Positions 201 to 33,107 are shown, counted from the first letter of the stretch. The stretch: 33,947 bases of DNA from a virus (IMGVR_UViG_3300032296_003616:1-33947), one strand, 5' to 3'. Made by a program: numbers and translations. The notes: generated by a model from the letters alone, not told the origin.

Positions 201-773
201 ATGAAAGATCAATCAAGTTTAAAGAAGGAATTCGGCAAAAAAGACGTACAGCGCATGCGTAACATCATCACAGGTAAAGCCGGTGACAGAACGCAGGTGT
301 TAGCGGGTTACCAAAAACAGAACGTAGACCACAAAGAAGGAGACGTTTGGGAAGAGAACGGTAAACAGTGGACCATAAAAGACGGAATAAAGCAGACGGT
401 GACCGCTATGGATAGGTTCAAGAAGCTGGTTGTGATGCCGATATGTTGCCCCAAGTGTAACAAACCGATGAAGCTTAACGATCTGAACAAGAAGATGTAT
501 TCTATTCACTCTGTGTGCTTCAATTGTGTTATAGAAATGGAACAACAGCTCAAGTTAACAAACCAGTTTGAGGAATACGGTAAGCAGATACTTAAGAACA
601 ATCACCAGACGTACCTAAAAGACGTTGAAGCTGCTTTGGAAGCTTGGTACAACGAGAACGAATCGTACGTTACAGAGGCCGGCGACGTAGAAGTTTGGAA
701 AGGAGGAAACAAAAAAGAGATGTACGAACAGGTCAAAAAGCAATTGGACAAAATAAAAGAAGAAAACGGTTGA
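201..773 (+). CDS. Conserved phage protein with a zinc-ribbon-like CxxC pair
   Basis: A 190-residue hydrophilic protein. I place the start at ATG 201, which follows an A-rich leader, rather than at the in-frame ATG 156, which overlaps the upstream gene and would add a 15-residue basic extension. The central segment PICCPKCNKPM followed about 25 residues later by VCFNC makes a four-Cys zinc-ribbon-type knuckle. The C-terminal half is Lys/Glu-rich and predicted helical. The N-terminal part (RMRNIITGKAG, followed by a WEENGKQWTIKDG stretch) looks like a compact beta segment. I do not recognise a function. A zinc-stabilised structural or regulatory role is an inference. Confidence 0.8.
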   Translation: MKDQSSLKKEFGKKDVQRMRNIITGKAGDRTQVLAGYQKQNVDHKEGDVWEENGKQWTIKDGIKQTVTAMDRFKKLVVMPICCPKCNKPMKLNDLNKKMYSIHSVCFNCVIEMEQQLKLTNQFEEYGKQILKNNHQTYLKDVEAALEAWYNENESYVTEAGDVEVWKGGNKKEMYEQVKKQLDKIKEENG

Positions 774-781
774 TATTTATA
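772..781 (+). promoter_or_regulatory. ATATTTATA motif, candidate late promoter
   Basis: GATATTTATA begins at the stop codon of the preceding gene and lies 17 nt before the ATG at 799. It is one of 14 matches to the window-wide (N)ATATTTAT(A/T) element placed shortly upstream of start codons. Its core TATTTATA is the reverse complement of the T4 late promoter. Confidence 0.55.
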
Positions 782-798
782 GATAAAAAAGAATAGAT

Positions 799-1437
799 AT
801 GCCAGCAAAATCAAAAGCGCAACAAAAATTAATGGGAATAGTTCGTGGTATCCAAAAAGGAACAGTTGATCCAAAAGACGTTTCAGCAAAAGCTGGTGAA
901 ATGGCAAAGACCATGAAACCAGGAGAAGTTGAAAAATATGCATCAACCAAACACAAAGGCCTTCCAAAAAAGGTAAAAAAAGAGGGAATGGAAGACGGCG
1001 CAATACACGAACTGTTTGTTGTTAAAATGGCTCATCCTGGATGCACCCCAGACTCACTGGTAGCTCCGATTGACCCGCTTAATGGAATATCAGGAACAGA
1101 AATAACGCCTGACCAAGTGCACGGGGTCTATCCCAGTGCTGATGTAGCAAACATGATAGCTGAAAAGGTGTGTATGGAGTACGAAGAGGGCCAAAGGATG
1201 CTTGAGGAGAAGAAGGGAAACACTACAGAGAAGCTAAAGAAAGCAATAGATAAGCTTGAGAAGAAGCGCAAGGAGCACATGGACGCAGCTAAAGAAGATC
1301 CAAAGAACGCTAGCGAACACAAAGCTGCCATAGCCGATCTCGCTACAAAGATAGACGATTACATAACCAAACTCGAAAAGATAGAGAAGAGCAAGAAAGA
1401 GATCGAGAAGAAAGAAGATAAAAAAGAAAAAAAATAA
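799..1437 (+). CDS. DUF3008-type N-terminus with long charged helical tail
   Basis: A 212-residue protein. Residues 1-57 (MPAKSKAQQKLMGIVRG through YASTKHKGLP) match the small conserved family I know as DUF3008, which normally stands alone at about 60-70 residues. Here it is extended by a middle segment (about 65-130) with a Cys and several prolines, and then by a strongly Lys/Glu-rich helix or coiled coil from about 135 to the end. The tail ends in a run of KKE and KKEKK, suggesting an elongated, highly charged protein able to contact DNA or the prohead core. The candidate late promoter at 772-781 precedes it. The function of DUF3008 is unknown; the extension is the unusual part. Confidence 0.85.
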   Translation: MPAKSKAQQKLMGIVRGIQKGTVDPKDVSAKAGEMAKTMKPGEVEKYASTKHKGLPKKVKKEGMEDGAIHELFVVKMAHPGCTPDSLVAPIDPLNGISGTEITPDQVHGVYPSADVANMIAEKVCMEYEEGQRMLEEKKGNTTEKLKKAIDKLEKKRKEHMDAAKEDPKNASEHKAAIADLATKIDDYITKLEKIEKSKKEIEKKEDKKEKK

Positions 1438-1440
1438 ACC

Positions 1441-1812
1441 ATGGAAACAGTAGGACTATTCTTGGGCACGTTGATGCAGAGCAGAAACCAAGCCCACATT
1501 TACCACCTTCAAGTTACAGGACCCGGATCTCATGCCGCACACCTCGCTCTACAAGCTTATTACGAAGGAATAGTAACTTTGGTTGATGCTGTAGCAGAGG
1601 GAATACAGGGACGTTACGGCATAGTTAAGGGTTACCAAATGGCAGGAGCTATAAAAGAAGACAACGGCTTTGTGTCCTACTTCGAATCCCTTTGCAAGTT
1701 CGTAGAGACAGCTAGAAAAGCAATTCCACAGGACTCCTACGTACAAAACCAAGTTGATACAATAGTTGATCTTATAGAGACAACCAAATACAAGCTTAGA
1801 AACTTACAATAA
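1441..1812 (+). CDS. Ferritin-like / DUF5856-type helical protein
   Basis: A 123-residue, almost entirely helical protein. Residues 15-55 contain H19, H22, H31, H34, E42, D49 and E53 with the arrangement H-x2-H, H-x2-H, then carboxylates one helix further on. This resembles Dps/ferritin-like phage proteins of the DUF5856 type. The second half gives two further helices (YFESLCKFVETARK and the final amphipathic helix). It is short for a full four-helix ferritin (about 160 residues), so metal oxidation is only a possibility. The gene lies 3 nt after its neighbour and 0 nt before the next one, indicating a tightly packed operon. Confidence 0.75.
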   Translation: METVGLFLGTLMQSRNQAHIYHLQVTGPGSHAAHLALQAYYEGIVTLVDAVAEGIQGRYGIVKGYQMAGAIKEDNGFVSYFESLCKFVETARKAIPQDSYVQNQVDTIVDLIETTKYKLRNLQ

Positions 1813-2403
1813 ATGTGTAATTGCCAAAGAACATCGCTGCACGAGTCCATGAATAGGCTATTGGTATCAGAAGGCCTCAATTACCACATACAGAATAACG
1901 TACCAATAAACGAGAACATATACCGTCCGCAGTCAGAAAAGTTCATGGACCTTATAGTAGAAGTTAGATCGCTTTACGATAAGGGCCTAATCAACCTATC
2001 AGAAGAAGACAGCGAATACTTTGAAGGCACAGACCTAGGGCGCTTTGGAATATACGAAGGCATAAGAGTACCGTTAGACTTCCCAATGACGCTAGAGTTC
2101 TTGATGGAAGTCAAAAAGAAGTCAAAGAAAAAGCAACCAGCGCTAAACAAACCCAAGCGCGGAGGACCCAAAAAGTTCTACGTCTACGTTAGAAAGCCTG
2201 GCGGAGGAATAAAGAAGGTGACTTTCGGAGACACCACTGGACTAAGCGCAAAGATAAACAATCCAGAAGCGAGGAAGTCTTTCGCAGCAAGACACAAGTG
2301 TTCCCAAGCAAAAGACAAGACCACACCAAAATACTGGAGTTGCAGACTTCCACGGTATGCAAGCCTATTGGGACTCAAATCAAACTTCACAGGCTTTTGG
2401 TAA
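1813..2403 (+). CDS. Conserved basic phage protein with paired Cys near the C-terminus; leader-like N-terminus
   Basis: A 196-residue protein starting immediately after the previous stop codon. Residues 1-20 end in NRLLVSE and then Gly, which fits the T4 prohead-protease site (L/I/V)-x-E followed by a small residue. Residues 100-120 are a very basic linker. Residues 120-180 hold the conserved segment KFYVYVRKPGGGIKKVTFGD, then EARKSFAARHKC (C163) and KYWSCRLP (C177). I recognise this pattern from many marine T4-like phage proteins of unknown function. It ends in aromatic FTGFW. Capsid packaging followed by gp21 cleavage is inferred from the leader only. Confidence 0.8.
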   Translation: MCNCQRTSLHESMNRLLVSEGLNYHIQNNVPINENIYRPQSEKFMDLIVEVRSLYDKGLINLSEEDSEYFEGTDLGRFGIYEGIRVPLDFPMTLEFLMEVKKKSKKKQPALNKPKRGGPKKFYVYVRKPGGGIKKVTFGDTTGLSAKINNPEARKSFAARHKCSQAKDKTTPKYWSCRLPRYASLLGLKSNFTGFW

Positions 2404-2412
2404 TACTAAGCT

Positions 2413-2676
2413 ATGGAAAGACCATACACAGATACAATAGAAGACCACAGTTGCGTTATAAGAGAGTTCGACGAGAACATAGACCCGATAGAACTCATGT
2501 GGCACAGGGACAACGAGCACAGAATAATAGAAGCTGTAGAACCCACAGATTGGCTCGTACAATTTGACAACGAATTACCGATTTCTCTAGATAAACCCAT
2601 ATTTATACCTAAACACGCTTGGCACCGAACCATAAAAGGCACAGGAAAGCTAAAGATAAAGATAACAAAAACATGA
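2413..2676 (+). CDS. Conserved WHRD phage protein, probable cupin-like beta fold
   Basis: An 87-residue protein. ELMWHRDNEHRII, the central DWLVQFDNELP and the terminal FIPKHAWHRTIKGTGKLKIKI form a pattern shared with short cyanophage and marine phage proteins. The alternation of short beta strands with two His-containing turns suggests a small cupin-like barrel, perhaps metal-binding through the two WHR sites, though this is an inference. Its stop codon overlaps the next start in an ATGA (2673-2676), which indicates translational coupling. A late-promoter-like motif lies inside its 3' end at 2598-2607. Confidence 0.8.
   Translation: MERPYTDTIEDHSCVIREFDENIDPIELMWHRDNEHRIIEAVEPTDWLVQFDNELPISLDKPIFIPKHAWHRTIKGTGKLKIKITKT
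2598..2607 (+). promoter_or_regulatory. CATATTTATA motif inside the preceding gene, possible promoter
   Basis: A perfect copy of the window's best motif, CATATTTATA, lies within the codons for KPIFIPK and 65 nt before the ATG at 2673. It may drive the AT-rich gene pair that follows. Because the bases also encode conserved residues, a chance match is possible. Confidence 0.35.
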
Positions 2677-3017
2677 AACAACAAATCAACGAAATCAAAA
2701 GAATGCAACAATTAGCTGGAATTTTAGCTGAAAAAGTATCTATTGGCGATAAGTATTCAGATGGTCAAGTGGAATTTAAAGACATCGAGCCAGGCCAATA
2801 CTTTTTGCAATTTGGATTTAATGGTCAATTATGGAGAAAATCTACTGAAGAACCTAATAAAGCTTTTTTCGTTAAAAATGTAGGTAAAAAAACAGCAGCA
2901 AAGGGTACTAATACTTACATAAAATTAAATAAAAGTACACTCTATACTGGAGAAAGATTCACAGATTCTCATACTGTATATCCTATTGAAAATCCTAAGA
3001 ATATACCAATAGATTAA
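2673..3017 (+). CDS. Putative internal head protein with capsid-targeting-like leader (MKQQINEIK type)
   Basis: A 114-residue protein. The start at ATG 2673 is preferred over the in-frame ATG 2619 because it overlaps the upstream stop as ATGA and because the same leader starts the next gene. Residues 1-20 form an amphipathic helix ending ILAE, a fit to the T4 gp21 cleavage rule (L/I/V)-x-E. Cleavage would release a 94-residue beta-rich domain containing PGQYFLQFGFNGQLWRK and KAFFVKN. The gene is visibly more AT-rich than those before it, which is compatible with later acquisition. The domain function is not recognised. Packaging in the head is an inference from the leader and position. Confidence 0.8.
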   Translation: MKQQINEIKRMQQLAGILAEKVSIGDKYSDGQVEFKDIEPGQYFLQFGFNGQLWRKSTEEPNKAFFVKNVGKKTAAKGTNTYIKLNKSTLYTGERFTDSHTVYPIENPKNIPID

Positions 3018-3048
3018 TTATAGATTTTTATAAAAAAATAACAAAACT

Positions 3049-3273
3049 ATGAAACAGCAAATTAATGAAATTAAGAAAATGCAGCGAATAGCTGGTGTTA
3101 TTAATGAGACTCAAAACTATAATTTAATAGCAAAAGCAAAACAACTATTTCCTAGTTTACAGATTGATGCTAATTCTATATACCTTAATGACAAAATGCT
3201 ATTTTCATCTAATAATGATAAAGTAATAGAAGCATTTATTTTTGGTATGTTAGTTGGAAAAACAGCAAAATAA
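3049..3273 (+). CDS. Second MKQQINEIK-leader small protein, putative internal head protein
   Basis: A 74-residue protein. Its first 20 residues match 14 of 20 positions in the leader of the preceding gene, ending VINE before Thr. The two leaders differ by many synonymous codon changes, so protein-level constraint is implied. The predicted mature part (54 residues) begins YNLIAKAKQLFPSLQID and ends with a hydrophobic segment, AFIFGMLVGKTAK, which may be membrane-active or a buried helix. It is AT-rich like its neighbour. It lies 31 nt after the previous stop, behind a weak TTTTTATA stretch. The function is unknown; the leader is the informative feature. Confidence 0.75.
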   Translation: MKQQINEIKKMQRIAGVINETQNYNLIAKAKQLFPSLQIDANSIYLNDKMLFSSNNDKVIEAFIFGMLVGKTAK

Positions 3274-3351
3274 CAAAGCCGTAAGCTAGTTGCGATATTG
3301 TTCACCAAAATCCATTTATGGAAGCTGATAGTAAAATTCAAAAGAAACTAA

Positions 3352-3558
3352 ATGACTTGGAGATCACAATTCTTAAGCAACGTAGCTACAACGTGTCTGA
3401 TGCTGGCGATGTTTTTCAACCCGCTTGGCTTCGATGCGCTATTCAAACTAGTGATGGATTGGACAGGTTCATTTTGGGCTACGGATATCATTTTTTATGG
3501 CGCTTCGCTTTTGTTTCTTGGCTTGTATTTATTATTCAGAAAACTATCTAAAAAATGA
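3352..3558 (+). CDS. Small two-helix membrane protein
   Basis: A 68-residue hydrophobic protein with two probable membrane segments, about residues 8-28 (ATTCLMLAMFFNPLGFDAL) and 46-63 (IIFYGASLLFLGLYLLF), followed by a positive RKLSKK end. The start at ATG 3352 gives a typical membrane-protein composition, while the overlapping frame from ATG 3318 does not. Its stop overlaps the next ATG as ATGA. The 78 nt upstream (3274-3351) contain no convincing gene, apart from a possible short N-terminal stretch in the other frame (MEADSKIQKKLNDLE). That leaves open an ancestral frameshift. A role in lysis or membrane takeover cannot be decided. Confidence 0.7.
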   Translation: MTWRSQFLSNVATTCLMLAMFFNPLGFDALFKLVMDWTGSFWATDIIFYGASLLFLGLYLLFRKLSKK

Positions 3559-4604: not shown

Positions 4605-4614
4605 CATATTTATA
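4605..4614 (+). promoter_or_regulatory. CATATTTATA motif, candidate late promoter
   Basis: A perfect CATATTTATA four bases upstream of the ATG at 4619, in an otherwise short intergenic space. If it acts like a T4 -10 element, transcription would start at or next to the start codon, giving a leaderless or nearly leaderless message. Confidence 0.6.
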
Positions 4615-6743: not shown

Positions 6744-6753
6744 TACATTTATA
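6744..6753 (+). promoter_or_regulatory. TACATTTATA motif, variant candidate late promoter
   Basis: A one-base variant (ACATTTATA) of the window motif, nine bases before the ATG at 6763 in the 50-nt gap after the large composite gene. It is the only listed member lacking the ATATTTAT core. Confidence 0.4.
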
Positions 6754-7240: not shown

Positions 7241-7250
7241 CATATTTATA
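7241..7250 (+). promoter_or_regulatory. CATATTTATA motif, candidate late promoter
   Basis: A perfect CATATTTATA eight bases upstream of the ATG at 7259. It also decides the start choice. An ATG at 7238 would read through the motif as MHIYKK, an unlikely protein start because the motif recurs upstream of unrelated genes. Confidence 0.6.
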
Positions 7251-7258
7251 AGAAAAAC

Positions 7259-7636
7259 ATGGATAACGCGTTTAATAAACTATCTGAGATATTTTGCAAC
7301 AGAACCACAAAAAAGGTACTGTTTCTTTTGTCTATGGCTATTAGCATATTGTGTTTAATAACCATATTTTCTTTGTTCCCCAACTCAAGTAGTGATCTAA
7401 AAAAACAGGTAGATGATCTACAAAAGCGTTCCGAAGAATTGTTAAAAGCTCAGGCAAAATACGATAGTACCATAAATAGCCAAGAGGCGTACGTAATTGA
7501 GTTGGAGGGAAAAATAGCGAACATTAAAGAAAGAACAACAGTAATCAAAGAGTACTACACAACGATAAGAGAGCAAGTCAGTGCGTACGATTACAGACAG
7601 ATAGATTCCTTCTTCAGACAAAAATATAACTATTAA
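7259..7636 (+). CDS. Membrane-anchored coiled-coil protein, possible inner-membrane spanin
   Basis: A 125-residue protein when started at ATG 7259 rather than the upstream ATG 7238, which lies across the promoter motif. Residues 20-40 (VLFLLSMAISILCLITIFSL) form one membrane segment with a short cytoplasmic N-terminus, and residues 45-105 are a long heptad-rich coiled coil. This topology fits an Rz-type inner-membrane spanin, and the next gene encodes an exported protein only 2 nt downstream, the usual pairing. A structural tail or head-membrane protein is an alternative, since no endolysin gene is seen next to it. Confidence 0.7.
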   Translation: MDNAFNKLSEIFCNRTTKKVLFLLSMAISILCLITIFSLFPNSSSDLKKQVDDLQKRSEELLKAQAKYDSTINSQEAYVIELEGKIANIKERTTVIKEYYTTIREQVSAYDYRQIDSFFRQKYNY

Positions 7637-11585: not shown

Positions 11586-11595
11586 TATATTTATA
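11586..11595 (+). promoter_or_regulatory. TATATTTATA motif, candidate late promoter
   Basis: TATATTTATA in the 37-nt gap after the portal gene, 19 nt before the ATG at 11615. It resembles the Bacteroidota -7 consensus TAnnTTTG as well as the inverted T4 late box. Confidence 0.55.
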
Positions 11596-13877: not shown

Positions 13878-13887
13878 CATATTTATT
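13878..13887 (+). promoter_or_regulatory. CATATTTATT motif, candidate late promoter
   Basis: CATATTTATT ends three bases before the ATG at 13891, the shortest spacing in the window. A transcript starting about 6-8 nt after this box would begin at or inside the start codon. Confidence 0.55.
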
Positions 13888-15859: not shown

Positions 15860-15869
15860 CATATTTATT
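15860..15869 (+). promoter_or_regulatory. CATATTTATT motif, candidate late promoter of the gp22-gp23 unit
   Basis: CATATTTATT in the 119-nt gap before the scaffold gene, 89 nt upstream of its ATG. It would give the only long 5' leader in the head module, and that leader holds two perfect inverted repeats. Confidence 0.6.
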
Positions 15870-15876
15870 GATAAAT

Positions 15877-15897
15877 GTGCAAATCCCACTATTGCAC
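15877..15897 (+). promoter_or_regulatory. Stem-loop 1 in the gp22 leader
   Basis: GTGCAA at 15877-15882 and TTGCAC at 15892-15897 form a perfect 6-bp inverted repeat around a 9-nt loop, just downstream of the candidate promoter. There is no U-tract, so a terminator is unlikely. A role in mRNA stability is possible. Confidence 0.45.
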
Positions 15898-15915
15898 TAA
15901 ATCAAAAAAACACAT

Positions 15916-15940
15916 ATTGCTTCAATCTACAATAAGCAAT
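15916..15940 (+). promoter_or_regulatory. Stem-loop 2 in the gp22 leader
   Basis: ATTGCTT at 15916-15922 and AAGCAAT at 15934-15940 form a perfect 7-bp inverted repeat with an 11-nt loop. It is followed by an unpaired A-rich stretch up to the ATG at 15959, the kind of unstructured translation start used where Shine-Dalgarno pairing is absent. Confidence 0.45.
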
Positions 15941-15958
15941 TAAAAACCAAAAAAAATC

Positions 15959-17170: not shown

Positions 17171-17205
17171 AAAATCAAAAACAAAACAAAAAACCAATAA
17201 TCACA

Positions 17206-18840
17206 ATGGCAAATTTAGTAAGCTCGCTTTTAAGCGAATCAGCCCAAACTGCCTTCGAAAGCCAAACAGGTGTTGCTACCCGTCTTTCGAAAAAATGGGA
17301 AAAATCCGGACTTTTAGAAGGTCTTCAGGATTACGAAAAGAACAACATGGCAGTGTTGTTAGAAAACCAAGCAAAACAGCTCGTAGTTGAAACCACACAA
17401 ACTAACCAAGGCGGTAGCAACTGGAGCGCAGGAAACGGCGAACAGTGGGCTGGCGTAGCTCTTCCATTGGTTCGTAAGATCATGGGTCAGATCGCTGCGA
17501 AAGAGTTCGTTAGCGTACAGCCTATGAACCTTCCTGCTGGTCTAGTATTCTACCTTGATTTCCAATACGGAGACACTAAGACTCCTTTTGGATCTGGTAA
17601 CTCAATCTACGGTACTCCTTCTGCTAACTTCGGTAACTTGGCTGCTGGTGGTCTTTACGGCGCTGGTAAGTTCGGTTACTCTTTGAATCAGTTCAGTGCT
17701 TCTTCTACTGCTACTATCACTTCAGCTTCTTACGCTGACATCGACTTTAACGCAGACCTTTCTGCTTCTTTCGTTGCTGGTCAAGTTAAGAAGATCGCTG
17801 TAGCATCTAGTGATTTAACAACTGCTGATTTGGACGCTGTTCGTTCTTTCATACCAGTATCTGGATCTACTTTCACAACCGCTGCTACTCGCGTGTTGCA
17901 AAACTTCACAAAAGTTAACGGCGCAAACGTTGAGTTCTTCGTAACTGCTTCTACTGCAGAAGTTGCTGGTACAGCATTTACAGTGTTCTACAGCAAGCAA
18001 ACCGACTTCAACTCTCGCGGTGACTTCGAAGACAGAACTGGCTTACCTTCAGTTCCTAACGCTGCTTCTAACACATCTATCGTTATCCCTGAGATCAACG
18101 TACAGATGAAGAATCAGACCGTTTCTGCTAAAACTCGTAAGTTGAAAGCGCAATGGACTCCTGAATTTGCACAAGACCTTAACGCTTACCACTCTCTTGA
18201 CGCTGAAGCTGAATTGACTGGCATCCTTTCTGAGCACATCTCTCTTGAGATCGACCTCGAAGTTATGGATATGCTAATCAACAACGCTCCTACTGTTGAG
18301 TACTGGTCAGCTAAGGTTGGTAACCAAATCAACGCTACTAACAGCGATTTCACTTCTAACACTGCTGGCGTGTTCTACACTCAAATGACTTGGTTCCAAA
18401 CACTTGGTATCAAACTTCAGAAGGTGTCTAACATCATCCACCAACGTACTTTACGCGGTGGCGCTAACTTCATGGTAGTGTCTCCTACAGTTGCTACAAT
18501 CCTTGAGTCAATCCCTGGATTCGCTGCTGATACTGACGGAGCTGCTGACACAATGAAGTACGCTTTCGGTGTACAGAAGATCGGTGCTTTGAACAGCCGT
18601 TACAAAGTGTACAAGAACCCTTACATGACTGAGAACGTGATCCTTATGGGTTATCGCGGTAACCAGTTCCTTGAGTGTGGCGCTGTATACTCTCCGTACG
18701 TTCCATTGATCATGACTCCTCTCGTTTACGATCCTAATACTTTTACACCTCGCAAAGGTATCATGACTCGTTACGCGATGACAATGATCAGACCGGAATT
18801 TTATGGTCTAGTTGTAGTAGCAGATACAAATGTGATCTAA
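17206..18840 (+). CDS. 23: Major capsid protein, gp23-like
   Basis: A 544-residue shell subunit (T4 gp23 has 521). I start it at ATG 17206 after an A-rich leader; the in-frame ATG 17143 overlaps gp22 and would add 21 unlikely basic residues. KEFVSVQPMNLPAGLVFYLDFQYG and KTRKLKAQWTPEFAQDLNAYHSLDAEAELTGIL (split here for length: KTRKLKAQW, EFAQDLNAYH, DAEAELTGIL) are classic gp23 blocks. By alignment with T4 (cut at E65), gp21 cleavage is predicted after LVVE at residue 62. Residues about 150-270 form a Ser/Thr/Ala-rich insertion domain. Codon use differs from neighbours (ATC, GCT, ACT and CTT preferred over ATA), as expected for the most abundant protein. A strong terminator follows. Confidence 0.96.
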   Translation: MANLVSSLLSESAQTAFESQTGVATRLSKKWEKSGLLEGLQDYEKNNMAVLLENQAKQLVVETTQTNQGGSNWSAGNGEQWAGVALPLVRKIMGQIAAKEFVSVQPMNLPAGLVFYLDFQYGDTKTPFGSGNSIYGTPSANFGNLAAGGLYGAGKFGYSLNQFSASSTATITSASYADIDFNADLSASFVAGQVKKIAVASSDLTTADLDAVRSFIPVSGSTFTTAATRVLQNFTKVNGANVEFFVTASTAEVAGTAFTVFYSKQTDFNSRGDFEDRTGLPSVPNAASNTSIVIPEINVQMKNQTVSAKTRKLKAQWTPEFAQDLNAYHSLDAEAELTGILSEHISLEIDLEVMDMLINNAPTVEYWSAKVGNQINATNSDFTSNTAGVFYTQMTWFQTLGIKLQKVSNIIHQRTLRGGANFMVVSPTVATILESIPGFAADTDGAADTMKYAFGVQKIGALNSRYKVYKNPYMTENVILMGYRGNQFLECGAVYSPYVPLIMTPLVYDPNTFTPRKGIMTRYAMTMIRPEFYGLVVVADTNVI

Positions 18841-18860
18841 TACTACTGATCTATAAAATA

Positions 18861-18892
18861 AAAAGGCTCGACCAAAATCGGGCCTTTTTTTA
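18861..18892 (+). terminator. Rho-independent terminator after the capsid gene
   Basis: AAAAGGCTCG at 18861-18870 pairs with CGGGCCTTTT at 18879-18888, a 10-bp stem with one G-T wobble and an 8-nt loop, running into a T7 tract. It lies 20 nt after the gp23 stop codon and would isolate the high-level scaffold/capsid transcript from the endonuclease cassette. Confidence 0.9.
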
Positions 18893-18908: not shown

Positions 18909-18918
18909 TATATTTATA
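18909..18918 (+). promoter_or_regulatory. TATATTTATA motif, candidate promoter of the endonuclease cassette
   Basis: TATATTTATA between the capsid terminator and the endonuclease ATG (29 nt downstream). It gives the mobile-element-like cassette its own start signal independent of gp23. Confidence 0.5.
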
Positions 18919-18947: not shown

Positions 18948-20297
18948 ATGGAAGTAAAATGTAAGATATGCGGATACGAAACAACTAGACGGGGTTTAAT
19001 GCCACATGTATCACAAAAACACGAAATAGGATTAGAAGACTACGTTGCAAAGTATGGAGAATATAGAAAGCGTCAATCTAATCTGCTCACACGGTCGAAA
19101 GACAGCGAAGTTATCTGTAAAGTGTGTAATGAGAAATGCGCCTCTGAACGACACCTGTCTTATCACCTAAAGATGAGTCACAATCTCAAAAGACGAGATT
19201 ACATAACCAAATACCTATTAAACGATAACATACCATTGTGTAAGTGCGGTTGTGGAGAACAAGTAAGCATACGATCGAGTGGAAAGCCGCCGTATTGGTC
19301 TGAGTACATCTCAGGGCACAACATATACGATGCTCACGTTGGAGCTAAAAGGTCTCACGAATCAAAGATGAAAATGAGACAAGCAGCTATAAATAGAATG
19401 AAAGAGAAGAACTCTGTATTTTTTTACAACGCTGTATCCAAACAAGAGTTAGATTTTGCGCAGTGGCTTAAAGAAGAGCTTAATCAAATTGTAGTATCAA
19501 GCGATAAGTCTGTTCTCTCTGGTCTGGAATTGGATATGTATCTACCAGAAAATAATTTAGCCATAGAGATAAATGGAATAAGATTTCACAGTGATATGTA
19601 CAAAGACAGGAATTATCACTTAAAGAAAACCAAAGAGTGTAACGAGAAAGGCATACGATTAATACACATTTGGAGCTGTGATCTATTAAACAAAGAAGAC
19701 ATAATAAAGTCGCAAGTTAGACACATATTGGGATTGAGTCAAAACAAAGTTTACGCTAGGGATTGCGAAATAAAAGAAGTATCGATAAATGATTGTCACG
19801 TGTTCCTTAGAAAAAACCACCTCCAAGGTTCAGTTGTATCTAAGCACCGTTACGGCCTGTATCACAACAATGAGCTAGTTCAGATAATAACCTTCGGTAA
19901 GATGAGATACGCTAAGAGGGAAAACGAACACACAAACGCTTTTGAGCTACTAAGACTGTGTTCCAAGCTAAACACAACAGTAGTGGGCGGGTCTAGTAAG
20001 CTTTTCAACCACTTTATAAAGCTACATAACCCTAATTATGTTTTATCATACGCAAATAGGGATTGGTCGATGGGATCTGTGTATAATTTACTCAATATGA
20101 AAGAAGCCGGTTATACCCCTCCAGGTTACTTCTACTCAAACGGTAAGGCTAAGTTGACCAGGTACCAGTGTCAGAAACACAAGTTGGTAGAAATGGGATT
20201 CGACAAAGAGATGAGCGAATACGACATAATGCAATCCCGTGGATATTACAAAGTTTGGGATTGTGGTAACATAAAATACGAATTAAAACTGAATTAA
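18948..20297 (+). CDS. Homing-endonuclease-like protein: zinc fingers, Vsr/EDxHD nuclease, Mom/GNAT-like C-terminus
   Basis: A 449-residue protein. Two C2H2-type fingers, C5/C8/H20/H25 and C57/C60/H73/H78, are each followed by a Y-(V/I)-x-K-Y motif. A third Cys knuckle is CKCGCGE (98-103). Residues 163-245 form a Vsr-like PD-(D/E)XK nuclease with E167, D196 and NLAIEINGIRFHSDMYKDR (E207, H214, D216), matching the EDxHD homing-endonuclease family. The C-terminal half (VFLRKNHLQG, LLRLCSKLNT, VVGGSSKLF, VLSYANRDWSMGSVY) resembles Mom-like acetyltransferase folds often fused to such nucleases. It is free-standing downstream of gp23, which is intact, so it is not an intron or intein. It is probably a selfish element that cleaves related phage genomes. 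Confidence 0.85.
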   Translation: MEVKCKICGYETTRRGLMPHVSQKHEIGLEDYVAKYGEYRKRQSNLLTRSKDSEVICKVCNEKCASERHLSYHLKMSHNLKRRDYITKYLLNDNIPLCKCGCGEQVSIRSSGKPPYWSEYISGHNIYDAHVGAKRSHESKMKMRQAAINRMKEKNSVFFYNAVSKQELDFAQWLKEELNQIVVSSDKSVLSGLELDMYLPENNLAIEINGIRFHSDMYKDRNYHLKKTKECNEKGIRLIHIWSCDLLNKEDIIKSQVRHILGLSQNKVYARDCEIKEVSINDCHVFLRKNHLQGSVVSKHRYGLYHNNELVQIITFGKMRYAKRENEHTNAFELLRLCSKLNTTVVGGSSKLFNHFIKLHNPNYVLSYANRDWSMGSVYNLLNMKEAGYTPPGYFYSNGKAKLTRYQCQKHKLVEMGFDKEMSEYDIMQSRGYYKVWDCGNIKYELKLN

Positions 20298-20977: not shown

Positions 20978-20987
20978 CATATTTATA
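20978..20987 (+). promoter_or_regulatory. CATATTTATA motif, candidate promoter of phoH
   Basis: A perfect CATATTTATA 17 nt before the ATG at 21005. The in-frame upstream ATG at 20975 would translate the motif (MHIYIK), so the motif argues for the later start. Confidence 0.6.
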
Positions 20988-21684: not shown

Positions 21685-22851
21685 ATGCCAAACCCCCTTA
21701 TATTTGACGGAACACCAACTCCCATATCGGGTAGCACTCCGTTTGGTTTCTACGATAACGATCCACAGTTCCAAATTGACGGACCAAAAGTTGCAAACTT
21801 TGTTGCAAGGAAACTGGGTTACGGGGTTATGGATGTAGAATTAGATGATCCAAACATATACGCTTGCTTCGAGGAGGCTGTATCTGTTTACGGAGAAGAA
21901 CTGTATCAGATAAAGATAAAAGACAATTACATAAGCATAGAGGGATCTCCAACGTCTTCTTTATTGAATAATACAGTGATTACGCCCTCATTGAATAATA
22001 TCATAGCGATAGCAGACGATTACGGAGAGGCAGCTGGTGTTGGTGGTAATACAGAATGGTACACTGGTTCTTTAACTATGAAAAAAGATCAACAGGTGTA
22101 CGATCTACAACAGTGGGCGATAACTTCCGGAGGATTGGCATCAAACGATAGGATACAGATAAAACGCATATTCTACGAATCGAATCCAGCTGTTAACCAA
22201 TACTACGATCCGTACATAGGTGGTTCTATAAACTATCAGGGAGCCACAGAAAACTTCGGTTGGGCGAGCTACTCTCCTGGTTTAAACTTCGTGTTGTTCC
22301 CAGTTTATTGGGACATACAAAGAATTCAAGAAATAGAGATGTCAAACATGGTTAGACGCTCAGCGTTTAGCTTCGAACTCATAAACAACAAGATTCGCAT
22401 ATTTCCAATACCCGAGAAAGATGATTTGATATTGTTCTTCCAATACGCAAAACGCAGCGAAACATCAAACATAGCTGGAAACAGTTACTACGGATCTAAC
22501 CCAGGATTGGTGACTAACCCGTCTAACGTACCTTACGGAGCGATAACATACAATCAGATAAACTACCCAGGAAAGCAGTGGATATTCGAGTACACTTTGG
22601 CGCTTTGCGCTGAATTGCTTGGATTGATTAGGGGTAAGTATTCAACAGTTCCAATACCTGGAGCTGAGGTTACACTAAACGCTGGAGATCTCGTAACTAT
22701 GGGTAGGGACATGAAGACAACGTTAAGAGAGAAATTGAGAGGAGATTTGGAGGACATGAGCAGAAGGTCTCAACTAGAGAGGAAACAAGCGGAGAACCAG
22801 TCTTTGAACGATACATTGAACCAAGTTCCAATACCAATATTTATACTGTAA
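21685..22851 (+). CDS. 13: Neck protein, gp13-like
   Basis: A 388-residue protein (T4 gp13 has 309). In T4, gp13 and gp14 seal the DNA-filled head and form the neck to which the tail attaches. NFVARKLGYGVMDVELDDPNIYACFEEAVSVYG near the N-terminus (split: ARKLGYGVMDVELDD and IYACFEEAVSVYGEE) and the central NMVRRSAFSFELINNKIRIFPIPEKDD match my memory of environmental gp13-like proteins, as does the C-terminal charged helix RGDLEDMSRRSQLERKQAE. The call is reinforced by the gp14- and gp15-like genes that follow in T4 order. It has no promoter motif of its own and is probably read from phoH. Confidence 0.75.
   Translation: MPNPLIFDGTPTPISGSTPFGFYDNDPQFQIDGPKVANFVARKLGYGVMDVELDDPNIYACFEEAVSVYGEELYQIKIKDNYISIEGSPTSSLLNNTVITPSLNNIIAIADDYGEAAGVGGNTEWYTGSLTMKKDQQVYDLQQWAITSGGLASNDRIQIKRIFYESNPAVNQYYDPYIGGSINYQGATENFGWASYSPGLNFVLFPVYWDIQRIQEIEMSNMVRRSAFSFELINNKIRIFPIPEKDDLILFFQYAKRSETSNIAGNSYYGSNPGLVTNPSNVPYGAITYNQINYPGKQWIFEYTLALCAELLGLIRGKYSTVPIPGAEVTLNAGDLVTMGRDMKTTLREKLRGDLEDMSRRSQLERKQAENQSLNDTLNQVPIPIFIL
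22836..22845 (+). promoter_or_regulatory. AATATTTATA motif at the end of the gp13-like gene
   Basis: AATATTTATA lies in the last codons of the gp13-like gene (PIFIL) and seven bases before the next ATG. The spacing matches other sites, but the overlap with coding sequence lowers confidence. Confidence 0.4.
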
Positions 22852-24602: not shown

Positions 24603-24904
24603 TGTCCAAGTTAAAGTTAAAACAGATACTATCCAATTTGCACTACGACGAGGCCAACGATCAGTTGATCCTTAGCGGTTCGAAGCGTCCTACTGCCGAT
24701 CTGGTATGGAACGAAGCAACACAGAATTGGGAAGACGCGTTTGGTGATTGGGACGGAACAAGGAACAGCATACCCGACTTCGTGATTTCGGGATCTACGG
24801 TTGTGACAGACGGAGTATACTCGAGCGGATCGCTAACTATAAAAGGGTTGGATACCTTTGGAGATAGCGGAAGCTATTATTCTATAGATTTAGGAGATTA
24901 TTAA
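24602..24904 (+). CDS. Small beta-rich structural protein
   Basis: A 100-residue protein sharing one base with the preceding stop (TAATG). MSKLKLKQILSNLHYDEANDQLILSGSKRPTADLVWNEA (quoted in parts: LKQILSNLHYDEANDQLILS and ADLVWNEATQNWEDAF) is followed by a beta-strand-rich tail with ISGSTVVTDGVYSSGSLTIKG. The GSLTIKG style matches the following fibre genes, suggesting a small virion or fibre-attachment protein. I do not recognise the family. Confidence 0.7.
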   Translation: MSKLKLKQILSNLHYDEANDQLILSGSKRPTADLVWNEATQNWEDAFGDWDGTRNSIPDFVISGSTVVTDGVYSSGSLTIKGLDTFGDSGSYYSIDLGDY

Positions 24905-24912
24905 TATTTATA
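24903..24912 (+). promoter_or_regulatory. AATATTTATA motif, candidate promoter of the fibre operon
   Basis: AATATTTATA overlaps the stop codon of the previous gene and lies seven bases before the ATG at 24920, at the boundary between tail-completion and fibre genes. Confidence 0.5.
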
Positions 24913-25790: not shown

Positions 25791-27404
25791 ATGTCACAAA
25801 CTTATAGAATAGGATCTCTCAATTTCACTGGTTCGCAAGCTATATTAAGCGCTTCGTTAGACGTATCAGGCTCAGGCAGGTTTACAGATGGATTAATAGT
25901 AACACGCTCGCTATATGTAACAGGATCAGAACCAACCATCTTTTCAGCAACAGGAGACGTACTCGAAGTATCAGGTAGCTTTGTTCTATACGGCAGTGCT
26001 AGTATATCGGATTCAGTAGTAATAGAAGGACCCGTTAATATAAAGAATAGTACAAGGGTAACAGGCTCACTAGACATATCAGGTTCAATCATTCCCGCTG
26101 TAGAAGGAGTAAGCGCAACATCTAGCTTTAGCTTAGGTAGTGCTACAAATGCTTGGAAAGATATTTGGGTATCAAACGGCACAATCAATTTCTTAGATGG
26201 TGCTGGTAACGTACAAGCTGCTCTAACAAGTAACGATCAAGGCCTTCAAATTGAAAACTACGCAGCTACAACAGGAAGTGTACCTGTATTTAATATAAGT
26301 GGCAGCGGTAATATAACAAACGGATTGACTGTAACAGGTTCATTAGCACAAGGAAGTAGTGTTGTAGCTACTGGATCTTTTTCACACGCTGAAGGCAACC
26401 AAACAATAGCATCAGGCTCATATTCACATGCTGAAGGAGATAGTACACAAGCAATCGGAGCTGCTTCACATGCAGAAGGCGGTCAAACACAAGCTATAGG
26501 TAACTATTCACACGCTGAAGGCAGAGAAACACAGGCTGTAGAAGCTTATTCACATGCAGAAGGATACCAAACAGTAGCATCAGGCTCATATTCTCACGCC
26601 GAAGGTGAAGGTACACAAGCAATAGGAGAAGGTTCCCATGCTGAAGGCACATATACTCAAGCAACAGGATACGTTTCACATGCAGAAGGATACCAAACAA
26701 TAGCATCAGGTTCATATTCTCACGCAGAAGGTAGCAGTACACAAGCAATAGGAGCAAATTCACACGCAGAAGGTAGCAGTACACAAGCAATAGGAGATGG
26801 TTCACACGCTGAAGGAAATATTACACAAGCCGTAGGAGACTACTCTCATGCTGAAGGAGATAACACTCGAGCAGTAGGAAACTATTCACATGCTGAAGGT
26901 CAAGAAGCAATAGCATCAGGATCATACTCACATGCTGAAGGATATGATACACGAGCAATAGGAAACTACTCACACGCAGAAGGATCAAGTACACAGGCAA
27001 TAGGGGATTATTCGCACGCCGAAGGCTACCAAACAATAGCATCAGGCTCATGGTCACACGCTGAAGGATATAACACACAAGCAATATTACAAGGATCACA
27101 CGCAGAAGGCTACTTCACAATAGCATCTGGCTCCCACCAACACGTATCAGGTCGGTACAATGAACACGGCAATGAGTTATCACTATTCGTAGTAGGTATA
27201 GGCGATAATAACGAAACCAGAAAAGACGGCTTCACAGTAGACGTAGATGAAAACGGAAGTGGATCTGTAATGATACCAAACAACGTAAATGCACCATCAG
27301 TAGCAAAAACAGGTTCAATGTATGTTGATCCTGCAAACAACAAACTATGGATATACACTGGGAATGGTGGAGTAAGTGGATGGGTAACTTCTAGTTTGGG
27401 ATAA
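25791..27404 (+). CDS. YadA-head-like (SHAEG repeat) tail adhesin
   Basis: A 537-residue protein. Residues 1-190 are GSxxVTGS fibre strands. Residues 195-446 consist of 18 tandem 14-residue repeats of the form GxYSHAEGxxTxAx, the Hep_Hag/YadA-head pattern that folds as a trimeric left-handed beta roll. The repeats are followed by a degenerate copy (SGSHQHVSG), a neck-like block, GNELSLFVVGIGDNNETRKDGF, and a C-terminal KTGSMYVDPANNKLWIYTG end. In bacteria this fold makes surface adhesins; here it would form a host-binding fibre head. Repeat number may vary by recombination. Confidence 0.9.
   Translation: MSQTYRIGSLNFTGSQAILSASLDVSGSGRFTDGLIVTRSLYVTGSEPTIFSATGDVLEVSGSFVLYGSASISDSVVIEGPVNIKNSTRVTGSLDISGSIIPAVEGVSATSSFSLGSATNAWKDIWVSNGTINFLDGAGNVQAALTSNDQGLQIENYAATTGSVPVFNISGSGNITNGLTVTGSLAQGSSVVATGSFSHAEGNQTIASGSYSHAEGDSTQAIGAASHAEGGQTQAIGNYSHAEGRETQAVEAYSHAEGYQTVASGSYSHAEGEGTQAIGEGSHAEGTYTQATGYVSHAEGYQTIASGSYSHAEGSSTQAIGANSHAEGSSTQAIGDGSHAEGNITQAVGDYSHAEGDNTRAVGNYSHAEGQEAIASGSYSHAEGYDTRAIGNYSHAEGSSTQAIGDYSHAEGYQTIASGSWSHAEGYNTQAILQGSHAEGYFTIASGSHQHVSGRYNEHGNELSLFVVGIGDNNETRKDGFTVDVDENGSGSVMIPNNVNAPSVAKTGSMYVDPANNKLWIYTGNGGVSGWVTSSLG
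26373..27128 (+). repeat. 18 tandem 42-bp repeats encoding SHAEG units
   Basis: Eighteen in-frame 42-bp units with SHAEG at a fixed position, five or six of them ending IAS or VAS and most others ending QAI or QAV. Codons differ among copies (CAC/CAT, GCT/GCA/GCC), so the array has diverged at synonymous sites while the protein pattern is kept. Confidence 0.95.
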
Positions 27405-28781: not shown

Positions 28782-28791
28782 CATATTTATT
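28782..28791 (+). promoter_or_regulatory. CATATTTATT motif, candidate promoter of the long fibre gene
   Basis: CATATTTATT starts one base after the previous stop codon and 55 nt before the ATG at 28847. The intervening leader contains no obvious hairpin. Confidence 0.5.
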
Positions 28792-28846: not shown

Positions 28847-31800
28847 ATGTCAAACCAGTACCTTAAACTGCGTAGAAGCAACGTACCAGGCAAAATTCCA
28901 ACAACGGAATCAATAGATTTTGGTGAGATAGCTCTCAATACGTACGACGGTTTGGCTTACATGAAGATAAACGGACCGAACGGGATTGAAGTAGTACCAA
29001 TAGCATCATCATCAGGATCATTTTCAGGAAACTTTACAGGAACATTTAGTGGATCTTTATTTGGAACTGCTAGTTGGGCATATAGTTCATCAGTAGCTAT
29101 AAGCAGTTCATATGCGTTAAGTTCGTCTCAAGCAGAGTCAGCATCGTATCTAAATCCGCTCAACCAAAATGTTACGATAACAGGTAGCTTGTATATAAAC
29201 GGCACTGCATCTATTGATGTGTTGAATGTGAGGTACATTTCATCGTCTGTAATATATTCTAGCGGATCTAACGTTTTTGGAGACAGCACCCAAGACACAC
29301 AGGAGCTCTTTGGCACAGTCATAGTATCAGGCAGTCAATCTATAACGGGCTCTTTAAAGGTGAGCCAGGGCATCACTGGGTCTCTTCTGGGAACGTCTAG
29401 TTGGGCATTGAACGCGTTAACAACGTCTTACACGCCGGGTTTGTCTAATAATGGCACTCAATATTACCTGCCAGTGTGGACAAACACTAGTTCACTAAGT
29501 ACTAGTTCGCTGTACGACGACGGTAGTGTATTGAAGAGCGTGTATGGGGGTAATGATATAGGTTTAAAACTAGATTTCGCAAACGCGTCTTATGCGCTGG
29601 GAGACTTCAATAATATATCGGGTAGCACTAAGTTAGTAATAAACGATACAGCACTAACAATAACTATAACAGGCTCTCTTATAGCGCCTAGCATAACAGG
29701 ATCACTATACGGTACTGCTAGTTGGGCTGAAAATGCGTTAAGAGCATCAGACGTATTGGGAGGTAAAGCACCCCATGTTCCCTATTTTGACACAGACACA
29801 ACGCTAGCAACAAGCTCGATATACCAATCGGGCTCTACCAGCGTAATCATAAACCAAGACGCCAATACAACAGCCAACCCAGAAGCGCTGTACGTTTGGC
29901 AACCACACCCAACATCAATAAACGTAATTAGCGGTAAAGGTAACTTAGATAACTACCTACAGCTAAACATTCAAAATACAAACCAAGGGGGAGACGCATC
30001 ATCAGATGTAGTTGCAACTGCCAACAACGGCAACGAGAGTACCAACTACATTGATATGGGTGTCAACAGTGAAAACTATAACGGTTTTCTAGGTGGACCA
30101 AACGATGCCTATCTATATAGTGCCGGAGAGAACCTGTGGATAGGCAACTATTCAGACGGTAAGAACGTATACTTCTTTAACAGTTCAAGCGAGGCAGCTT
30201 TAATTACGTTAACTCCGTCAAACACCGTTGATGTTAACACAAGACTAAACGCTCCTAACACTACGGGTAGCTTACACGGTACCGCTAGCTGGGCGCTAAA
30301 TGTAATAAGTGCATCGCACGCAGTTAACTCTGATTTCGCAGGATACGCTCAAGCAGCTGGAGTTGCAGCAAACGGAGGCGTAACTCAAATAATAGCAGGA
30401 TCAGGTGTATCACTAGTACCAGCAAACGGATTAGGCAACGTAACGGTAATCGCTACCGGGGTAGGAGGCGTAACGATACTGTCGGGATCTAACGTAACAG
30501 AATCTTTTGTTAACTCGTCTACTTGGGCTTTCACTCACAGCCTTGGCGTTAGAACCCCTATCATAAGCGTGTTCGATTCTAACTATAATCAAGTAATACC
30601 CGAATCGATCCAGCTAATAGACACAGCGAGCGCCATAATAACATTCCCAACGTTAGAGAGTGGGTTTGCGGTAGCATCTGTTGGGGGTGTAACAGGAAAC
30701 GCATTATCATCTTCATACTCACTATTCGCTACATACGCAGACACAGCTTCATTCTATGCTGAAACCGATCCCGTGTTTGTAGCAAGGTCAGCTTCGTTAG
30801 CTACTACTGGATCTAACGTGTTTAGAGGCACCCAGACGATGAGCGGTAGTTTGATTCTAGTAAACGGTGCTACAGGATCGTTATTAGGAACTGCATCGTA
30901 CGCTTTAAATGCACTAAGTGCCTCATACGCTCAAACAGCATCATATTCTTCTAATCTGCAAATATCAGGATCAATAAACAACGTAGACTATATTGATTTT
31001 AAACCATACGCAGCCGGTACATCGCCTACTTGGAGAGATGGTAGATTATTTTATGACAGTGGATCAGGTACAGTTGCTTTTTATAACTGGGAACAAGATG
31101 TCACATTAAACGTTGGACAGGAATCTTGGGTGCGTGTTAGAAATCAAACCGGAACATTAATTACAAACGGTTCTGCTGTTAAACTATCAGGAGCTGTGGG
31201 CGATAGACCCACTATTATACTAGCTCAGTCTACAGACGAAGTCCAAACACCCACCTTTAATAATGATATAATAGGATTAGCAACGCATGATATAGAAAAC
31301 GGTACGGACGGGTTTGTAACAACGTTTGGATTAGTGAACGGTGTAAACACGGCAGCATACAGTGCAGGAGATTTATTGTGGGTATCTCAATCAGCAGGTC
31401 AATATACAAACGTGGCTCCATCTGCACCGTACGATAAAATATTCATAGGTGTAGTAACTAGAGCTAATGTAAATAACGGCTCTATATTTGTAACACCTAG
31501 TCAACCGATGCACTTCCATGATATATCATCTGTAAGCCAATCTGGAAACTATACACAAGGCGATTTGTGGATGTTTAAAGCATCTGGATCAAGCGGTGTA
31601 TGGACAAATACAAAACAATTATCTGGAAGCTATAGTGTAATAGGATCACTTACAATATCAGGTTCATCTACTTTTACCAACATAGGCCCTGCTGTATTTA
31701 CTGGATCTGTAAATATAACTGGTTCTACCACACAAACAGGTAATAATACATTAATAGGTAATACGATATTAAGTGGAAGTGTAGATATAAGCGGATCACA

Positions 31801-32593
31801 AACGTTCTACGGTACATCAGCGTTTTACGGTAATCACACATTAAGTGGAAGTAATACCATTACCGGCAATACAATAATGAGTGGTAGCATTAGAGTAAGT
31901 GGTTCATCTACTTTCAATAATAGTGAGTTTATCGTAACCGGCTCTACATCTATATTAGGCAATTTTAATGTAAAAGGCACATCTATATTTTCAGACTCAA
32001 CATTTACCGTTACAGGTTCGCAATACTTTACTGGATCGTCTTTTATAAACGGTAATCAGTCATTAACTGGAAACTCAACAGTTACAGGTTCGTTAAATGT
32101 AATAGGAAACATCAACGTGGTGAGCGGTTCTTCATTCACAAGATGGGGCAACAAGCTATTTAACTACGCTCAATTCGCCAATACAGCCTCTATACCAGCA
32201 ACCGCTAACGTATCAGCGTCGTTTACTTTACCTCTAGCATACTTTAAAGACGGTATAAACATAACTAGCAGTAGTAGGATTACCTTTGAAAATACTGGAC
32301 TATACAATATACAATACGTAGCGATAGCAAACCAAGGAAGTGGAACACCAAGCCTTCACATGTGGTTTAAAAAAACAGGATCGAACATAGATAATTCTAG
32401 TGCACAGATACAGCTACAGAACAACAGTCAAACAGCGTTAACTTACAACTTTGCTTTTCCTTTCAATGCAGGAGAATACGTTGAACTGTGGTACCACACT
32501 ACGACAACAAACACGTCGTTTCCATACACAGCGGCAGGAAGCGGATTCCCAGCAACACCATCAATAATAGTAACAGTAACACAGATAGCATAA
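28847..32593 (+). CDS. Long tail fibre with repeated GTASWA modules and a C1q-like C-terminal domain
   Basis: A 1248-residue fibre. Residues 1-45 (KLRRSNVPGKIPTTESIDFGEIALN) form the virion-attachment N-terminus common to environmental fibre proteins. Five GSLxGTASWA-type modules, each followed by an Ala/Ser-rich helical stretch, separate beta domains. Residues about 510-620 form a domain with SSTWAFTHSLGVRTPIISVFD. Residues about 704-887 form another, with WVRVRNQTGTLITNGSAV and GLATHDIENGTDGFVTTFGL. Residues 930-1098 are short GSxxIxGN strand repeats, probably a beta helix. Residues from about 1105 (SFTLPLAYFKDGI, ENTGLYNIQYVA, NAGEYVELWYH) resemble a C1q/TNF-type jelly roll, a likely receptor-binding tip. 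Confidence 0.9.
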   Translation: MSNQYLKLRRSNVPGKIPTTESIDFGEIALNTYDGLAYMKINGPNGIEVVPIASSSGSFSGNFTGTFSGSLFGTASWAYSSSVAISSSYALSSSQAESASYLNPLNQNVTITGSLYINGTASIDVLNVRYISSSVIYSSGSNVFGDSTQDTQELFGTVIVSGSQSITGSLKVSQGITGSLLGTSSWALNALTTSYTPGLSNNGTQYYLPVWTNTSSLSTSSLYDDGSVLKSVYGGNDIGLKLDFANASYALGDFNNISGSTKLVINDTALTITITGSLIAPSITGSLYGTASWAENALRASDVLGGKAPHVPYFDTDTTLATSSIYQSGSTSVIINQDANTTANPEALYVWQPHPTSINVISGKGNLDNYLQLNIQNTNQGGDASSDVVATANNGNESTNYIDMGVNSENYNGFLGGPNDAYLYSAGENLWIGNYSDGKNVYFFNSSSEAALITLTPSNTVDVNTRLNAPNTTGSLHGTASWALNVISASHAVNSDFAGYAQAAGVAANGGVTQIIAGSGVSLVPANGLGNVTVIATGVGGVTILSGSNVTESFVNSSTWAFTHSLGVRTPIISVFDSNYNQVIPESIQLIDTASAIITFPTLESGFAVASVGGVTGNALSSSYSLFATYADTASFYAETDPVFVARSASLATTGSNVFRGTQTMSGSLILVNGATGSLLGTASYALNALSASYAQTASYSSNLQISGSINNVDYIDFKPYAAGTSPTWRDGRLFYDSGSGTVAFYNWEQDVTLNVGQESWVRVRNQTGTLITNGSAVKLSGAVGDRPTIILAQSTDEVQTPTFNNDIIGLATHDIENGTDGFVTTFGLVNGVNTAAYSAGDLLWVSQSAGQYTNVAPSAPYDKIFIGVVTRANVNNGSIFVTPSQPMHFHDISSVSQSGNYTQGDLWMFKASGSSGVWTNTKQLSGSYSVIGSLTISGSSTFTNIGPAVFTGSVNITGSTTQTGNNTLIGNTILSGSVDISGSQTFYGTSAFYGNHTLSGSNTITGNTIMSGSIRVSGSSTFNNSEFIVTGSTSILGNFNVKGTSIFSDSTFTVTGSQYFTGSSFINGNQSLTGNSTVTGSLNVIGNINVVSGSSFTRWGNKLFNYAQFANTASIPATANVSASFTLPLAYFKDGINITSSSRITFENTGLYNIQYVAIANQGSGTPSLHMWFKKTGSNIDNSSAQIQLQNNSQTALTYNFAFPFNAGEYVELWYHTTTTNTSFPYTAAGSGFPATPSIIVTVTQIA

Positions 32594-32594
32594 A

Positions 32595-33092
32595 ATGAGA
32601 ATATTTCAACCCATAGTAACCTCTTCGCTTAACGTACAAGATACGGTGACAGCAGTTGCTTTTACAGGCAGCCTTTATGGTACTGCTTCATGGGCCCATT
32701 CATCATCTTATGCCACAAACGCAATAAATGCTCAAAGCAGCTCCAACTTTACTGTAACCAATACATTAAAGATAGACGATACAGCGATAAACGTACAGTC
32801 TGCGCTATCAACTGTCGTTGGATCAAACAACATATATAACACGCCAACGGGTTCATACACAGCATTCTTTGGAAAATACACAATATATAAAAACACAAAC
32901 GCACGAGCAGGTGAATTTATGGCTGTGTGGAACGATGCTTTACCCGTAGTATACACAGACACGTCAACAACAGACATAGGAAACACAGCAGATATAACTC
33001 TCACAGCAACGCTTGTTGGCAGCGATATTCAAGTAAATGCTAATGCTTTATCGTCTGGTTGGACTGTAAAGATGCTCGGCACTTTTATCTAA
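32595..33092 (+). CDS. Short fibre protein with one GTASWA module
   Basis: A 165-residue protein starting one base after the long fibre. Residues 1-50 carry the same attachment-type start plus GSLYGTASWAHSSSYATNA as the long fibre. The remainder is a single beta domain ending with LSSGWTVKMLGTFI. It looks like a truncated or alternative fibre tip built from the same module set, either an accessory fibre or a recombination donor. The function is inferred from composition. Confidence 0.75.
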   Translation: MRIFQPIVTSSLNVQDTVTAVAFTGSLYGTASWAHSSSYATNAINAQSSSNFTVTNTLKIDDTAINVQSALSTVVGSNNIYNTPTGSYTAFFGKYTIYKNTNARAGEFMAVWNDALPVVYTDTSTTDIGNTADITLTATLVGSDIQVNANALSSGWTVKMLGTFI

Positions 33093-33097
33093 CTTAC

Positions 33098-33107
33098 CAT
33101 ATTTATT
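33098..33107 (+). promoter_or_regulatory. CATATTTATT motif, candidate late promoter
   Basis: CATATTTATT in the 56-nt gap after the short fibre gene, 41 nt before the ATG at 33149. The flanking ACCATATTTATTACTG closely resembles the copy at 28782 (GCATATTTATTACTGG). Confidence 0.5.

Follow-up and report, generated by a model that had tools for sequence, protein, structure and literature searches.

Genes of the window and distribution of the box

The window analysed here, that is, the whole 33,947-base viral fragment IMGVR_UViG_3300032296_003616, contained the head region of a distant T4 relative, in which an 8-base element, ATATTTAT (hereafter the box), recurred just upstream of genes. All genes called in the window lay on the + strand, as recorded in the initial annotation, and included the following:

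Start 8033, +: terminase
Start 9649, +: portal
Start 15201, +: prohead protease
Start 15959, +: gp22-like (scaffold) gene, assigned by position only
17203-18840, +: gp23-like major capsid gene, used as the query for finding relatives
18948-20297, +: HNH homing endonuclease, directly after gp23
Start 20996, +: PhoH-like gene
Start 21685, +: head-tail adaptor

No match was obtained by megablast of the window against phage records. The nearest isolates by gp23 identity were Flavobacterium phage immuto (54%), Microcystis phage Mel-JY01 (51%) and Rhodothermus phage RM378 (38%); the host of immuto is Flavobacterium, and Mel-JY01 was recorded from the cyanobacterium Microcystis. Many relatives in IMG/VR were closer to the window than these isolates, the closest long one being G001 (180 kb, locus L009), whose gp23 was 90% identical to that of the window.

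Thirteen exact copies of ATATTTAT were found on the + strand and none on the - strand (shuffle mean 2.85, largest 9), a number reached in 0 of 100 shuffles, and nearly all of them sat just upstream of genes. With a one-mismatch copy, ACATTTAT at 6745, the window had 14 sites, which agreed with the fourteen recurrent copies, one with a single mismatch, that had been counted before; the positions also agreed, except that the earlier count took in the preceding N, so that each box starts one base later. The earlier distance of 3-89 nucleotides (nt) to gene starts became 4-98 nt from box end to likely start codon with the start choices made here. The sites are listed below with the predicted start of transcription (+1), placed at offset 12 from the first base of the box.

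773-780, +: box; predicted +1 785 (A), gene start 799
2599-2606, +: box inside the end of open reading frame (ORF) 2413-2676; predicted +1 2611 (A), likely gene start 2664
4606-4613, +: box; offset 12 is T and offset 13 the A of ATG 4619, predicted leaderless or nearly so
6745-6752, +: one-mismatch box; predicted +1 6757 (A), gene start 6763
7242-7249, +: box; predicted +1 7254 (A), likely gene start 7259
11587-11594, +: box; predicted +1 11599 (A), gene start 11615
13879-13886, +: box; predicted +1 13891 (A), the A of ATG, predicted leaderless
15861-15868, +: box of the gp22-gp23 (scaffold, major capsid) operon; predicted +1 15873 (A), start 15959
18860-18889, +: terminator-like hairpin after gp23, directly before the box at 18910
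18910-18917, +: box; predicted +1 18922 (A), HNH homing endonuclease start 18948
20979-20986, +: box; predicted +1 20991 (A), PhoH-like gene start 20996
22837-22844, +: box; offset 12 is T and offset 13 is A, gene start 22853
24904-24911, +: box; predicted +1 24916 (A), gene start 24920
28783-28790, +: box; predicted +1 28795 (G), start 28847 or 28874
33099-33106, +: box; predicted +1 33111 (G), gene start 33149

Two boxes, at 7242 and 20979, fell downstream of the mechanically called ORF start; translation of these genes probably begins at 7259 and 20996 instead.

Except in RM378 and T4, an unconstrained expectation-maximization motif search settled on A-rich leaders, and 8-mer enrichment was used instead. 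Among all 8-mers in the 90 nt upstream of window genes, ATATTTAT ranked first (11 versus 0.62 expected) and its reverse complement was not seen; motif discovery on upstream regions with both-strand counts had been proposed in the initial annotation. It was also the top upstream 8-mer in G001 (39 versus 5.9 expected), in the relative G004 (33 versus 1.9) and in Mel-JY01 (11 versus 1.6), while the same scan on the T4 late region, as a positive control, put the T4 late box TATAAATA first. Control 8-mers of the same composition were much rarer upstream of window genes than ATATTTAT. In genomes with genes on both strands, the orientation of the box followed the gene (31 sites before + genes and 6 before - genes in G004; 36 before - genes and 5 before + genes in G001). 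As had been observed before, a matching set of T4 boxes was lacking: TATAAATA had 12 matches over both strands of the window, only one of them upstream of a gene.

Conservation of the box at orthologous genes

The box was kept at orthologous genes across about 60 relatives, in a count that tolerated one-base variants at the first two box positions. It was present upstream of 56 of the 57 orthologs of gene 11615, 56 of 61 orthologs of gene 13891 (median protein identity 35%), 63 of 69 gp22 orthologs and 58 of 60 PhoH orthologs. None was found before the orthologs of gp21 (0/63), gene 12467 (0/53) and gene 23346 (0/56), which look like internal genes of operons. Spacing between box and AUG ranged from 4 to about 107 nt between genes and was conserved within the orthologs of each gene. 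Virion genes were among those preceded by a box, i.e. the gp22-gp23 operon and the genes after gp20, as was PhoH.

Predicted transcription start and leaderless mRNAs

At non-redundant upstream sites, a purine occupied offset 12 in 244 of 278 cases (88%), C was nearly missing there, and G was depleted one base before. Only 38 of 81 sites inside genes (47%) had a purine at this offset (Fisher's test against upstream sites, 1.9e-13). In the window, 12 of the 14 sites possessed it. No -35 signal accompanied the box, and sigma-70 TTGACA/TATAAT pairs were at background (41 versus 45.7 and 23 versus 32.4 expected). Thus, the box sites are very likely promoters, as judged from these sequence patterns.

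The spacing from box to ATG had a peak of 24 sites at exactly 4 nt and 13 sites at 5 nt, and almost no site was closer. Exactly 4 nt separated box and ATG in 48 of the 61 orthologs of gene 13891, in which the four linker bases varied and the spacing stayed, which is what mRNAs beginning at their start codon would show. Mel-JY01 had many boxes 33-37 nt before ATG, with a purine-rich stretch resembling a ribosome site between them, indicating that box and translation start are separable. By these data, ATATTTAT would span -12 to -5 of a single-element late promoter in this phage lineage, RNA would start at the offset-12 purine, which is the fifth base past the box, and some mRNAs would begin exactly at the A of AUG and be leaderless. 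This scheme predicts late timing, leaderless translation and independence of the clamp.

The predicted leader of the gp22-gp23 mRNA, 86 nt in the window and of similar length in relatives, contained two conserved hairpins:

15873-15958, +: predicted gp22-gp23 mRNA leader, two conserved hairpins with covariation
15877-15882/15892-15897, +: leader hairpin 1
15916-15922/15934-15940, +: leader hairpin 2

Double compensatory changes were seen at 11 of 13 pairs, and 97.9% of cells paired versus 78.1% after shuffling; the leader had no Rfam match. The first hairpin begins about 5 nt after the predicted +1, a position just past the start that supports the start-site call. The hairpins possibly serve translational control or 5' protection of the capsid mRNA, and merit study in their own right. 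In most relatives (alignment A4), the two loops share a (C)UAAUA ending.

Comparison with late promoters of T4 and other phages

To our knowledge, late promoters and late sigma factors of T4-related phages are hardly known beyond Proteobacteria and marine cyanophages. In the literature within reach, from which subscription journals were missing, no prior report was found of the box, of gp55 in Bacteroidetes phages, or of RM378 promoters.

The T4 late box TATAAATA spans -13 to -6 (PMC2988020). In the T4 late region, the purine was at offset 13 from the first T of TATAAATA, compared with offset 12 from the first A of ATATTTAT, so that alignment by the start site gives T-A-T-A-A-A-T-A for T4 and N-A-T-A-T-T-T-A(-T) here. 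The two boxes are identical at -12, -11, -10, -7 and -6, and the AA of T4 at -9/-8 is TT here; position -13 is free, and a T is added at -5. The box had been described in the initial annotation as an inverted T4 box, but alignment by the initiator replaces this with a substitution at -9/-8 in the same orientation. TATAAATA is nearly palindromic, and swapping its two central bases therefore happens to yield its reverse complement.

Further likenesses to T4 (PMC2988020, PMC7892883) are a single 8-bp AT box at -10 upstream of virion genes without a -35 element, a purine start at the same distance once the one-base shift of the box is allowed for, and a gp55-like sigma in relatives that keeps the Tyr of the -12 pocket and the Glu of the clamp helix. 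The system differs in that the consensus TATAAATA is not enriched and ATATTTAT takes its place, in its predicted leaderless late genes, and in a longer sigma with a C-terminal helical domain of about 100 amino acids. The late promoter of cyanophage S-PM2, NATAAATA (PMC2984593), likewise has a relaxed -13 and the same ATA at -12 to -10, but keeps AA at -9/-8, and cyanophage gp55 keeps the Thr equivalent to T99. That T4-related phages do alter the box is also evident from Aeromonas phage Aeh1 (a/gC at -13/-12; PMC2988020), although its changes are at -13/-12 and not at -9/-8. RM378 has a gp55-like protein, p020, and a strong upstream motif of its own, TTATTTAAnnnAAAA (26 sites, L094/L095, often 6 nt before ATG), which shares TATTTA with ATATTTAT; it differs in having T at -12 and AA at -5/-4, if aligned on the shared core, and in possessing an ordinary sigma-70-type factor too.

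A candidate gp55-like sigma factor

The gp55 profile phrog_234 gave a weak match to immuto gp118 (E 0.008), and this protein formed one family, with the same gene neighbourhood, with proteins of three other relatives that matched the Sigma70_r2 profile. A profile of the family found members in the records of 15 of 22 relatives, including Mel-JY01 (E 1e-54) and RM378 (E 8.5e-11), and these were labelled hypothetical wherever annotated (p020 in RM378, where an ordinary sigma, p144, is also encoded). Comparison of the gp55 and new-family profiles by hhalign (E 3e-4) gave an alignment over the core of region 2 as well as over the N-terminal segment typical of gp55. In a structure predicted from 53 sequences, residues 27-143 matched sigma region 2; the best hit of a VIA search had a Z of 10.0 over 105 residues and the first 41 rows were all sigma factor chains, scores to be read with the caution due to a predicted model and a helical fold. 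The C-terminal helical domain (about 100 residues), when predicted alone, had a predicted local distance difference test score of 86 and no convincing fold match. Direct phmmer searches of the relatives with T4 gp55 or the RM378 sigma returned nothing usable. Immuto gp126, weakly similar to the RM378 sigma, was rejected as a sigma candidate as it had no Pfam or PHROGs support.

In T4, pockets of gp55 take A-12 (Y97), A-9 (N13, H95) and A-8 (T99) (PMC7892883). The counterparts of Y97 and E70 were invariant in the family alignment, that of T99 was Gly in 53 of 53 sequences (Gln in immuto, Ser in Mel-JY01), and that of H95 was Tyr or Phe. The H95 position is less informative than T99 and N13, because Phe is found there in cyanophage gp55 too. 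As far as so remote an alignment can be read, the pocket residues would fit an unchanged -12 and a changed -9/-8. It is likely that the gp55-like sigma reads the boxes; the reader would most likely be the host RNA polymerase with a phage-encoded gp55 homologue (immuto gp118 family, about 230-260 amino acids) that contacts the box through the same -12 pocket as in T4 and through altered -9/-8 pockets. The window's own phage presumably carries such a gene.

The suggestion in the initial annotation that a phage sigma-like factor reads a changed box thus gained support from a gp55-like protein in relatives. It had also called for gp55, gp33 and gp45 to be sought together, and of these only a gp55-like candidate was recovered, in relatives: gp33 and gp45 had no family match in the genomes of seven long relatives, where diverged forms could be missed. 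Strong matches to the clamp loader gp44 occurred only in G009 and Mel-JY01 among the long relatives examined, and no T4-like acidic hydrophobic clamp-binding tail was seen in alignments of the new sigma, for which no motif-model search was made.

Alternative explanations

Chance, or the AT-rich composition of leaders, has a negligible probability as the source of the matches: intergenic DNA is AT-rich, but the 13 copies were never attained by shuffling, none occurred on the minus strand, and 8-mers of equal composition were much rarer upstream. It is very improbable that the box acts after transcription, as an RNA processing, stability or translation signal in transcripts from upstream promoters. 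Some boxes are just 4-5 nt before AUG, as such a signal might be, yet the purine initiator keeps its distance across very different leader lengths, the spacing to AUG varies between genes and is conserved per gene, the box at 18910 comes after a terminator-like hairpin, and the gp22 leader hairpins begin just past the predicted +1. An origin as a variant -7 element (TTTG/TAHHTTTG) for the primary sigma of a Bacteroidota host, the other proposal of the initial annotation, is improbable as well. The -7 elements of F. johnsoniae lie 4 or 5 nt before the start (PMC6847099), comparable to a box ending 4 nt before the predicted +1; the host of immuto belongs to this phylum, and TATTTATA loosely fits TAnnTnTn. 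However, the base identities differ, as T-12, A-11, T-6 and G-5 of the -7 element have no counterpart in the start-site register; upstream TAHHTTTG never exceeded its reverse complement (2 versus 4 in the window, 8 versus 19 in immuto, 12 versus 27 in G001); the same box is used in Mel-JY01, from Microcystis, a phage for which a Bacteroidota element would hardly be expected to work; and a phage sigma-like gene is available.

Less easily dismissed, though still unlikely, is that the sites are real promoters with another phage-encoded reader (a sigma that escaped detection, a further RNA polymerase, or an activator acting with the host sigma), the gp55-like protein being otherwise employed. The link between protein and box is indirect, and RM378, whose upstream motif is a different one, encodes an ordinary sigma besides its gp55-like protein. 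Against this, a single box without -35 is the gp55 architecture (PMC2988020, PMC7892883), the RM378 motif shares the TATTTA core, and the changes in the pockets match those in the box.

We therefore regard it as quite probable that late promoters of this lineage have ATATTTAT as their single, -10-like element and are read by the host polymerase with a phage sigma homologous to gp55. Several observations weigh against this reading. The whole case for promoter and sigma is drawn from sequence; orthologous sites in relatives are non-independent observations; and 2 of the 14 window sites have no purine at offset 12. The box was less dominant among upstream 8-mers in immuto, where some boxes precede genes not necessarily late (groES, gp002), and in RM378, despite its gp55-like protein, 0 of 15 ATATTTAT matches were upstream of a gene. 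With respect to the sigma, the Sigma70_r2 matches (in G001, G006 and G008) were weak and below the Pfam cut-off, the hhalign probability of the gp55 match was just 39%, the best Foldseek E value of 0.09 was weak, the listed Foldseek and VIA matches did not include T4 gp55 (7D7C), and the window itself contained no sigma gene.

On the broader scale, we see an even chance that the T4 late promoter was re-coded at -9/-8, with matching changes in the gp55-like pockets, in a large group of T4 relatives, for the most part uncultured, whose hosts are Bacteroidota and cyanobacteria, and that this lineage carries out late transcription without gp33 and gp45 and makes some late mRNAs leaderless. Such a system would provide predicted virion-gene start sites for many uncultured phages, name a candidate sigma in three isolates (immuto, Mel-JY01 and RM378) in which it was hitherto annotated as hypothetical, and allow the co-evolution of sigma and promoter to be tested cleanly, at the level of single bases, against the solved gp55 complex. 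If the absence of gp33 and gp45 is true, the system would be a naturally occurring example in which late transcription is not coupled to the replication clamp.

Other features of the window and related phages

The HNH homing endonuclease gene (18948-20297) has its own terminator-like hairpin upstream and its own late box, and this mobile gene appears to be wired into the late programme. In immuto (L089, L091-L093), a second family of upstream 8-mers, TTTAGGTA/ATTTAGGT, was enriched (17 versus 1.35 expected), possibly representing another promoter class. Similar amphipathic N-terminal peptides (MISLLDILFEAE, MNLDALILRQMLLEQDEE, MKLQDIIKRIYEEQ and the like) occurred on many proteins (window 3555, 3809, 4083, 4619, 13891 and 20297); they resemble prohead-core targeting or gp21-cleaved signals, which suggests a large set of internal head proteins. 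A tail-fibre-like protein encoded at 25791-27404 was made of SHAEG-x-T-x-A-x-G repeats, and CAAGG-rich repeats were present in the loci of several relatives.

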